Assembly (NCBI RefSeq): GCF_964019385.1
Contig: NC_088643.1
Coordinates: 18,614,775-18,678,774 of the forward strand
DNA from: Sycon ciliatum
Taxonomy: Eukaryota; Porifera; Calcarea; Leucosolenida; Sycettidae
Direction of reading: 5' to 3'
Length of the DNA stretch: 64,000 bases
The notes under the pieces are model-generated. The model saw only the letters and a program-made list of their open reading frames with translations. It was not told where the DNA came from and made no database searches. The stretch's first letter is position 1; the number at the start of each line of letters is the position of its first letter. A program made the position numbers and the translations under genes. This document shows positions 51,799-55,507 of the stretch, piece by piece.

Positions 51799-54700
51799 AT
51801 GGCTGCGAAGGCTGGCGACGATGAGGAACTGTTGCGCGAGCCAAGTCCCAAGGAGCTCCGTTCCGGTCGTCGCACGACATCAGCCAAGGTTGAACTGGCG
51901 GTCGCCACAACGAACGCACAAAAGAAGACATTCACGCGCTGGCTGAATGCCCAGCTGGTACGGGGCAGGGCGGACGTGAAAGTGGACGACCTGTTCAAGG
52001 ACCTGCGCAGCGGTGTGATCCTGCAGCGGATGGTTGGTGTGCTGTATCCGGGAGTCAAGCTGCACCGGGAAAAGGGCAAAGGCAAAATGCACCGCATCTC
52101 CAATCTGAACACTGTGTTGCAGTACCTGCGCAAGGAAGCCAAAATGAAGCTGATCAATATTGATGCGGAGGACCTGTTCGAAGGTAAGGAGAATTTGACA
52201 CTCGGCCTGATCTGGATGATCATTCAACATCACCAGCAGAAGGGTGGTTCGGCGAGCGGGAGCCTGAAAAAGTCACTGTTGGAGTGGTGCAAGAACTGCA
52301 CTGGCGGTTACAGTGGCGTGAACGTCACCGACTTGGCCAAGTCCTGGAGAGATGGCCTGGCGTTCAACGCTCTGCTGCACCACCACAAGCCGGACGTCGT
52401 CGACTTTGACTCCCTCGGCCAGAGCGACGCCAACGAGAACCTGCGCAGCGCATTCGAGCTCGGCGAGAAACACTTCAACATCCCGCAGCTGCTCGACCCG
52501 GAGGATGTCAATGTCGAGTCGCCGGACGAGAAGTCCATCATCACATACCTGCTCGACGTGCGGAACGAGCTCGAGCCTCTCAAAGTGTCCGGCAGTGCTG
52601 CTCCGCCGGCTGAGCCGGTTGCTGAGCCGGTTGCTGAGCCGGTTGCTGAGCCGGTTGCTGAGCCTGTTGTTGAGCTGGTTGTTGAGCAGAATGACTCGGA
52701 ACAGCAGCAACAGGAACCACAGCAGGAATCGCAACCGCCAGCGGTAGACTCCGGTAATGCCGAGCTGCTTGCCTGGATTGAGGAGCAGAAGCGTCTTGTT
52801 GCGCAGCTCGACGGAGAGATCCCGTTCAACGACGTCCAGGCACTGAAGACGGCGCTGGACAGTGCTGGAGATGTCCAAAGTGCAGCCCGTGCGAAAGAGG
52901 ACAGCGTTGACGCTACTAACTCCGATACACTATCGGCGGAATACCGCACTCTGTTGAGCGATATTGACAACCATCTGGCCTCTCTGCGAGCCGCACTTGC
53001 AAGTGCCAACAAGCATTTGGCAACGAAAGCCTCGATTAGCGGCAGCACCGACGATCTCGTGGAGTGGGCTCGTCAGAGAAATCGCGTGTTTGAGAAGGTG
53101 AATGACTTGCCAAACAGCTGGAGTGAGCTGTGTAGGCTGAAGGCCGAACTTGAGAAGCATGTGAGCGAGGACAGGCCGAGCAAGGAGAGCAAGAAGACGG
53201 ATGTGTGCAGTCAAGTTGAAGATCTAGTGTCATCACTGGCGGCCACGGCAAACAGCCAGGAGCTGGTGCATGCCGTGCGCGGTGACCAGGAGCGCCTGGA
53301 GAATGCCTGGCAGGACATGGCGCGCCAGCAGCCTGCCTACGCGGCTGCCCTGGACAAGCGCATGGCGGCCCTTCGCCAGAGCGCCATCACGACCATGGAC
53401 GGTGCTTGTGCTGCATTCAACACTGCGGTCGACGAGCACATTGAATCATTGAATGTGGACGGCATGACTGGAGAGGCGGATGAAGTGCAGAAACGCAAAG
53501 CCAAATTCGAGGCACAAGCAGCGGAGATGCTACCTGCTCTGGAGCGGCAACGCTGCCAAGTGCAAAATCAAGCCAAAGAGTATGGCCAGGAAGGCACGCT
53601 GGAGAGTCCAAGCGTTTCCCAGTACCACGAGAATGCAGACGCTGCGTGGAGGCGCCTCAAGGAGAAGCGTGCACTCTGCCTGGCCCATCTGGACGAGCGC
53701 CTTTCGCGACAAAGCGAGAACCGGCATTCTCTGGAGGCGTGGGTTGCTCAGAAGCAAGCCAGCTTCCAAGCAGACGACGTGGAGAAGCTGAGGCGTGCAG
53801 AGTTGGAAGACCGTCTCCATGGATTCGACGGTGCGTACCTCATCCAGGAATTGCCGCCGCGACAAAGCCAGTATGCTGAATTGGCGGAGAAGCCTGGCTC
53901 GCCATTGGCCAGCCAATGGGAAGAGCTGCAGCGGAAGCAGACAGCATATCGTGCTGCTATTGTTGCTGCTCTCGATGAGCGAAAGCGTGTCATCGCCGAA
54001 CTAGCAAACTGGACCGAGTCAAACAAAGCATGTTACAGTGTCCGTCAGTTTCCGTCTGACCGCGCAGCACTGGAGCAGCTACAGTCCGACGCCGAGCTGT
54101 TCGGCGTCGCCGACGTGCCGCGAATGGACCAGAAGTTAGCTAATCTTGCTGGCGTGTGCCGGCCCGATGCTGAGGACCTGATGGAAGCCTGGACGCGCCT
54201 CGTGGACGGTGTTTATCAGGAGTACAAGGCCGAACTGGCGCGCAGGATACAGTCGCTCGACGATGCCGAGGCACTGCAGAAGTGGTCCAACAGCCAGCGC
54301 ATCAAGTTCCGCCAGGCAGTGTCCGGCAACAGTCACGAGGAGCTGCAGATGCTTGTCGCCGAGCTGGACAGGCACGAGCAAGGCGAGCTGCAGGAGAAGA
54401 CACAGCTCAAGGAAACGATGCCCGCTGGCTTGCCAGAGAGTGAGCCGCCGTTTGCAAAGCTCACGGATATGTGGCGTGACATGGAGCAGGCACGTGCTGA
54501 CTATCGCCGCTCTCTCATGAACGAGCTGGAGAGAACGTCCAATGCAGCAGCAGCAGCAGCAGCAACAGCAGGCCAGAGTGACAAGTTTGGTGAGTGTTGA
54601 ACCGGGTGTTGTGTGCACATACACACATTTGTGCACGCACACACACACACACACACACACACACACACACACACACACACACACACAAGCACACACACAC

Positions 54701-55507
54701 ACACACACACACACACACACACACACACACACACACACACACACACACACACACACACACACACACACACACACAAGCACACACACACACACACAAAGAT
54801 ACACAGTTTTAAAACCGAAAATGAATATGCGCCAAATATTTGTTGACTTACAGTAAGTATCGGGAAGCCCCCCTCCCCCCCCCGTCAGAACCAAAATTCG
54901 TATTTTTGTTGACAGTTGGAGTACCGGTATATGACACATGTTAGAGACTGTGATTTTTTGGGCATCTGAAGTCAACATTCCATGCACTTCAACAAAACAT
55001 CAGATCGAAACAGTTACCCCATAGCCCATTTTTTTCATTTTCCAAAACTGTCTTGCCATGCAAAATGTAACGTACGGGGGCACTCAAGCAGAGTAGGGAG
55101 GCACTGCCACCCCCCCCCCCCCCTCCTTTGGCTTGAACCCTGATCTAGCAACATAGCCTGACTTGAATTCATGTTGCATGTATGCGCTCGGTGATTGTGT
55201 TGCTGACCCAACAGATGGAGGCAGCAGCCCTGCCATGGAGCCGATTCTGCCACCGGCCGCTATGCGCGACGCCGACGCCACCAGGCCATCATCTCCACCG
55301 GCTTCACTAGCACCGTCCAGCGGCGACGGTGGTGGCGGCCACGAGGACTCCGGCGAACAGGACCTTGCCAGCGGCGAAACGACGCCACTGATTTCCAGCC
55401 CGCCGGGCAGCCCTGTACGCCGATCGTCGTCGTCCGACAAGCCAGCCGGCAAGAGGACGAACGAAGATGCCTGCTGCTCCTGTTGCCCCTGCTGTACCAT
55501 TATGTGA
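51799..55507 (+). CDS. Tandem CH-domain, spectrin-repeat-like protein with Cys-rich CaaX-type C terminus
   Basis: Exon 1 (51799-54589) and exon 2 (55215-55507) join in phase 1 to 1027 residues. CH1 (about 41-146) opens with the actinin-type QKKTFTRWLNAQL. CH2 (about 155-259) has SWRDGLAFNALLHHHKPD and NLRSAFELGEKHFNIPQLLDP. Together they form an actin-binding domain of the alpha-actinin/spectrin/plakin type. A hinge with five AEPV-like tetrapeptides (271-290) follows, then about 600 residues rich in helix and heptads with spectrin-repeat-like Trp and Leu spacing. Exon 2 encodes a Ser/Pro/Gly-rich tail ending CCSCCPCCTIM: a CTIM CaaX box preceded by six cysteines. Farnesylation plus palmitoylation and membrane attachment are inferred. 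I know no named family with this exact layout; calmin is an analogue anchored by a transmembrane segment. Confidence 0.85.
54638..54795. repeat. (CA)n microsatellite in the CH-domain gene intron
   Basis: About 75 CA units with two AAGCA interruptions begin 48 bp after the donor site of exon 1. Confidence 0.95.

Follow-up and report, generated by a model that had tools for sequence, protein, structure and literature searches.

How does a protein with a spectrin-type actin-binding head come to sit on a membrane? Animal spectrin-type linkers are known to do so in three ways: by partner proteins, by domains that bind lipid, or by transmembrane segments. We analysed a 64,000-nucleotide stretch of the Sycon ciliatum genome (the window), located on a 98-Mb contig (C1) of the 538-Mb assembly, that contains a gene of animal type, apparently with a spectrin-like head and rod and a tail of a different kind. 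The predicted tail bears a lipid-attachment signal, and the protein therefore probably ties the actin skeleton directly to the membrane. On balance we favor a lipid-anchored actin-membrane linker as its product; the gene is credible, and its layout is unusual.

Two exons join in phase

The open frame of exon 1 runs from 51769 to 54597 and starts directly after a TAA, 10 codons upstream of the ATG. Exon 1 codes for residues 1-930 and the first base of codon 931 (Table 1). Joining it to exon 2 yields a predicted protein of 1027 amino acids whose junction reads ...DKF-D-GGSSP..., with the split codon G/AT giving Asp, and which ends in CCSCCPCCTIM before the stop. The splice signals are TTTG/GTGAGT at the donor and ACCCAACAG/AT at the acceptor (slashes mark the exon borders), the latter with a middling pyrimidine content of 0.53. 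Of the 23 YAG acceptor candidates between 54,700 and 55,480, that at 55215 opens the longest in-phase reading, of 97 codons. The second longest, from 55361, is 93 codons and stops short of the CaaX box, and three of the 23 (55215, 55311 and 55446) lead to the same CaaX end.

Table 1. Coordinates of the predicted gene and its parts within the window.
Feature	Position	Strand	Basis
Exon 1: N-terminus, tandem CH, acidic/proline linker and rod	51799..54589	+	open frame, coding score, translation
Tandem CH domain (actin-binding type), residues ~39-254	51913..52560	+	Pfam CH; PDB phmmer
Low-complexity linker (residues 263-314), Gln-rich in one stretch and containing PVAEPVAE repeats	52585..52740	+	sequence
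Rod, six proposed spectrin-like three-helix units, residues 315-916	52741..54546	+	Trp pattern, unit profile, predicted model
Proposed intron, 625 nt, GTGAGT...CAG, with a long CA repeat	54590..55214	+	splice signals and phase
Exon 2: Pro/Ser/Gly-rich tail with Cys-rich CaaX end	55215..55507	+	phase fit; coding score 0.304
ETTPLI, presumed acidic dileucine-type sorting motif, residues 985-990	55376..55393	+	by eye against the consensus [DE]xxxL[LI]
CCSCCPCCTIM, candidate palmitoylated cysteines (CCPCC included) and CTIM CaaX box, residues 1017-1027	55472..55504	+	

To assess coding potential we used a codon score whose training set was nine open frames from this genome, the gene itself being excluded. 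Exon 1 scored 0.333 in frame, close to the value for exon 2. The five other readings of exon 2 scored 0.302 (an antisense frame), 0.051, 0.005, −0.006 and −0.007. The sense frame of exon 2 thus fits coding sequence, yet one antisense frame is equally good, and the test is blunted here because the DNA is GC-rich.

These results bear on a rival reading, in which exon 2 lies outside the main transcript or is confined to an isoform. The protein would then end in another exon or in FGEC, where the unspliced exon 1 frame stops 11 bases past the donor, and would work in soluble form, cross-linking actin as alpha-actinin or cortexillin does. That nearby stop, the middling acceptor and the existence of other acceptors agree with such a product. 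The GTGAGT donor, the matching phase, the longest continuation among the 23 acceptors and the exon 2 coding score, so near that of exon 1, argue against it, as does the rarity of an in-phase Cys-rich CaaX end in simulated DNA (see below); we consider the soluble product unlikely. A donor-like GAAG/GTAAGG also occurs at 52184 within the CH1 coding sequence. The CH domain continues across this site, so the donor is probably unused, an isoform being possible.

The predicted tail ends in a cysteine-rich CaaX box

Exon 2 would add 97 residues rich in Pro, Ser and Gly, and at E≤1 no Pfam family matched them. Toward its end lies ETTPLI, a presumed sorting motif that fits the consensus [DE]xxxL[LI], followed by a basic/serine stretch and then by the Cys-rich CaaX end. 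Because this dileucine-type element precedes the cysteines, the anchor is possibly endosomal. Met as the X of a CaaX box favors farnesyltransferase, and from the sequence we infer, on what we regard as sound grounds, that the protein would be anchored by lipid. The genome has four matches to the prenyltransferase family PF00432 at three loci, all above the cut-off.

Could such an end arise by chance? Both strands of the window together contain 1428 stop-ended frames of at least 30 codons; 4 of them end in C-x-[VILMAC]-[MSQA], and one of the 4, the exon 2 frame, carries four or more Cys among its final 11 residues. The same end occurred in 3 of 30,100 and 2 of 30,143 frames of simulated DNA. 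In a larger simulation (frames of at least 20 codons), a CaaX end with at least four Cys appeared in 12 of 193,625 frames and one with at least six in 0 of 193,625. These figures are optimistic and the true chance is higher, because low-order Markov models lack the CAG/TGC repeats of the genome; such repeats are frequent in this DNA, so slippage can produce Cys-rich frames. One rival reading is that the cysteines bind metal or form disulfides, or came about neutrally by TGC/TGT slippage, and that the CaaX box is incidental. The frequency of CAG/CTG-type repeats in the window and a low-complexity tail with no relative in the genome would suit this explanation. The cysteine run is a mixture of TGC and TGT codons broken by Ser and Pro, however, and an acceptable CaaX box stands directly before the stop; together with the absence of any comparable frame among the 193,625, simulated without repeats, this makes an incidental origin improbable. 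The original prediction of an in-frame two-exon model with a Cys-rich CaaX terminus held up, through the phase of the join and through CTIM before the stop.

The head is a CH pair, probably of spectrin type, and the rod is probably spectrin-like

A tandem CH domain is certainly present in the predicted protein: Pfam CH matches in two stretches (E 1.2e-48). Among the best 60 of 66 PDB matches of the CH pair (phmmer), beta-spectrin came first (E 2e-54, 192 bits), followed by MACF1, plectin, alpha-actinin and utrophin; filamins ranked far lower (best 75 bits), and there were no nesprin or calmin heads. It is on this ranking, among the families in those 60 matches, that we would call the head spectrin-type (beta-spectrin/plakin/actinin). 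In the genome itself the head has its best full-length match (37% identity, E 3.6e-24) in a CH pair of filamin type at C1:18752344, which takes first place because the spectrin-type CH pairs of the genome match in pieces. A filamin identity was rejected on the PDB bit scores for beta-spectrin and the best filamin. The gene carrying that filamin-type pair (C1:18746500-18756400) lies ~74 kb to the right of the window end on the opposite strand, and its CH pair is likewise contained within one open frame.

Between head and rod lies the linker; residues 263-318 hold 12 Asp/Glu and zero Lys/Arg. The rod, for which a spectrin nature had been guessed and a profile search proposed, gave divided results. 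The Pfam spectrin repeat family PF00435 had no match to the whole rod. When the rod was searched in thirds, the middle third gave 17.1 bits (E 0.008), first of three families, and in the first third spectrin took only ninth place among 13 weakly matching families (13.6 bits, E 0.095); both scores lie below the cut-off of 29.9. In the first third eight other families stood above or beside spectrin, the best being SKA1 (E 0.0069), and the last third had no Pfam match. A phmmer search of the whole rod against the PDB returned four matches, none of them a spectrin chain.

The tryptophans of the rod suggest a repeated unit. No Trp pair has the canonical spectrin spacing of 32-36 residues. We placed unit-start Trp at 326, 423, 648, 738 and 829 and unit-end Trp at 504, 617, 707, 798 and 892, with Trp missing at 2 of the 12 expected anchor positions. 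The later units are short, with 90 and 91 residues between equivalent Trp. Three times, an end Trp is followed by the next start Trp at exactly 31 residues (P 0.056 against shuffles for any one distance, 0.029 for two neighboring distances), a test that is weak alone and in which the distance was picked after looking at the data.

A profile built from the six rod units, with zero outside sequences, was searched against the PDB at E≤10; it is not a blind probe, because the units were cut with the spectrin Trp pattern in mind. Fourteen of the 16 distinct sequences found carry spectrin repeats (best E 0.0024), and these are of three kinds only: five myosin fusions with alpha-actinin A, two plectin and seven beta-spectrin sequences. 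The other two, at E 2.5 and 3.7, were a nucleotidyltransferase and lamin-A/C, respectively. In a control with shuffled units (one shuffle), neither of the two matches was a spectrin, and the better was a designed helical protein (E 0.048). A single-sequence AlphaFold model of the rod is almost all helix at low confidence (mean pLDDT 55.8). Modeled helices at 286-335, 383-426 and 472-523 (rod numbering, in which 1 is protein residue 320) span the Trp-31-Trp pairs, and in this low-confidence model they would bridge them as the joining helices of spectrin do. The rod thus likely consists of divergent, shortened spectrin-like units, a likeness that holds at the profile level only. The tandem CH module of the original prediction was borne out by both domain searches, and the spectrin nature of the rod gained support from the 14 of 16 PDB matches, as against none in the shuffled control; of the proposed profile search, the PF00435 part stayed below its cut-off and the unit profile recovered spectrin repeats.

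Parts of the layout are known from other proteins

The original prediction had also said that it knew of no described family with this layout, a statement that must be narrowed in view of EHBP1/EHBP1L1 and paralemmin-1. EHBP1 and EHBP1L1 combine CH with a C-terminal CaaX box, are farnesylated in vitro and link endosomes to actin; a tagged EHBP1 construct lacking the CaaX box is cytosolic, and the box is needed for tagged constructs to localize in an endosome-like manner (PMC7442826, PMC5026484). Their order is C2 - CH - bMERB - CaaX, with a single CH and the boxes CVLQ/CVLS. The window protein has CH and CaaX in common with EHBP1 and differs in its tandem CH, spectrin-like rod and Cys cluster. 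Neither exon has a Pfam match to bMERB or C2, and an EHBP1 identity was rejected for want of bMERB; the three bMERB matches in the genome all lie elsewhere. One locus with CH fragments of MICAL/EHBP type, judged by eye (C5:30243000-30252900), could be the species' own relative of EHBP1.

The window protein resembles beta-spectrin in its CH pair and its probably spectrin-like rod. It differs in having about six short divergent units in a rod of ~600 residues, and a predicted lipid-type end; beta-spectrin has about 17 repeats. Pfam found no PH domain and no EF hands in either exon. Beta-spectrin proper was rejected on the missing PH domain and too few units, and alpha-actinin on the missing EF hands.

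Nesprins and calmin have a tandem CH and a C-terminal transmembrane anchor, and nesprins have spectrin repeats as well. They are like the window protein in pairing an actin-binding head with a membrane-anchored tail (predicted here), and unlike it in that the anchor is transmembrane/KASH there and CaaX with cysteines here. The resemblance, and the CaaX box with X = Met in which lamins end, could suggest a lipid anchor at the nuclear envelope, with the protein as a functional stand-in for a nesprin. Neither exon has a Pfam match to KASH, and a Cys cluster beside a CaaX box is found more typically in proteins of the plasma membrane or of endosomes; we regard a nuclear-envelope anchor as very improbable.

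Paralemmin-1 is not known to have CH domains or spectrin repeats. Like the window protein it has a C-terminal CaaX box with adjoining cysteines, lipidated in paralemmin-1 and predicted to be so here. It is a prenyl-dipalmitoyl protein of the spectrin-actin membrane skeleton, in neurons a separate lipid-anchored protein at the beta-II-spectrin lattice, and its yeast two-hybrid partners were all beta-II-spectrin pieces between CH2 and SR4 (PMC11887803). The window protein would unite the roles of paralemmin-1 and beta-II-spectrin in one chain.

The tail signals have a counterpart in PI4KII-alpha, an unrelated enzyme that has an acidic dileucine motif. This kinase has CCPCC in common with the window tail; palmitoylation of that motif recruits the kinase to membranes (PMC3743005). 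The main text of a study of spectraplakin-like proteins in early animals does not contain the word CaaX (PMC9145010). In the open-licence literature, at the level of titles and the first part of abstracts, we found no single chain that combines a tandem CH with a spectrin-like rod and a CaaX box. Within that scope the novelty claim stands for these three parts together and falls for CH with a farnesylated CaaX box, known from EHBP1.

The gene in its own genome

The genome contains at least 43 matches to the CH family and at least 51 to spectrin repeats, the latter on contigs C4, C8 and C9. Its own beta-spectrin-like gene (L037) matches the CH pair in separate pieces, of 33-69% identity each in this gene; the other spectrin-type CH regions (L038, L039, L040, L042 and L044) also match in pieces. 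We read these pieces as exons. In the window gene the CH pair and the entire rod lie within one exon. The difference makes retroposition possible, a conjecture.

Searches of the genome found no second copy of either the rod or the tail, and the five other genome matches to the tail have E values of 1.5 or worse. No relative was found among 17 pattern matches in a genome-contig collection or among 16 in viral contigs, other eukaryotes lying outside these collections; a plasmid collection likewise held no relative of the window protein.

By eye from open frames, the genome also has filamin-like and parvin-like genes. By eye, a long open frame at L012:2880-5450 carries CH at its N-terminus, two stretches resembling SH2 and, at its C-terminus, a SAM-like end, which would make it an adaptor of unusual layout.

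Elsewhere in the window, nucleobindin-like open frames lie on the minus strand at 26479-28918; they match NUCB1_N weakly (E 0.0077) and also EF-hand, and a long repeat stretch rich in Gln and His (PPHHEQQQQQ) comes next. A reverse-transcriptase fragment (17973-18581, minus) matches RVT_1 at E 1.1e-5, under the curated cut-off. Open frames at 10619-11539 (minus) and 19315-19860 (plus) have in common the stretch ...IGDWGG...SPGD.FYP.GV..V.D.RF..TFEVS; they look purple acid phosphatase-like by eye, with no Pfam match at E≤0.01. A minisatellite with units resembling DHASIQIMLLYRSCFYT lies at 15257-16004 (minus); on one strand, all three of its reading frames are open.

A model for lipid anchoring and its meaning

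We counted in favor of the linker the tandem CH, the unit profile, the phase, coding score and rarity of exon 2, the PF00432 loci and the precedents of EHBP1/EHBP1L1, paralemmin-1 and PI4KII-alpha. Counted against it were the middling acceptor, the equal antisense score, repeat slippage and the lack of a spectrin match for the whole rod.

In the mechanism that we propose, exon 2 would be spliced onto exon 1, the CH pair would bind F-actin, and the rod, with its six or so short three-helix bundles, would act as a spacer from which the disordered tail would extend to the membrane. Farnesyltransferase would prenylate Cys1024, followed by removal of AAX and carboxymethylation. DHHC enzymes would palmitoylate cysteines nearby, fixing the protein on the membrane, and depalmitoylation would release it, making the anchor reversible. 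ETTPLI and the CCPCC core may point to endosomal or Golgi-derived membranes, besides or instead of the plasma membrane.

A more far-reaching version, which we put forward tentatively and with clearly less confidence than the linker itself, is a spectrin-type linker both farnesylated and palmitoylated in one chain, with an endosomal sorting motif, that would do without ankyrin, a PH domain, a transmembrane segment or a partner. Cycles of palmitoylation would shift actin attachment between plasma membrane and endosomes, and the protein would represent a new family, perhaps a retroposed CH-repeat gene that gained a tail exon.

CH with a farnesylated CaaX box is not itself new; what appears new is the union of a tandem CH, a spectrin-like rod and a CaaX box in a single chain. 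If correct, the linker would provide a small and easily tested tool tying actin to a membrane through a reversible anchor. If one protein carries both roles, this would be a simpler solution than separate paralemmin-1 and beta-II-spectrin, and it would show that membrane attachment can be gained by one added exon.
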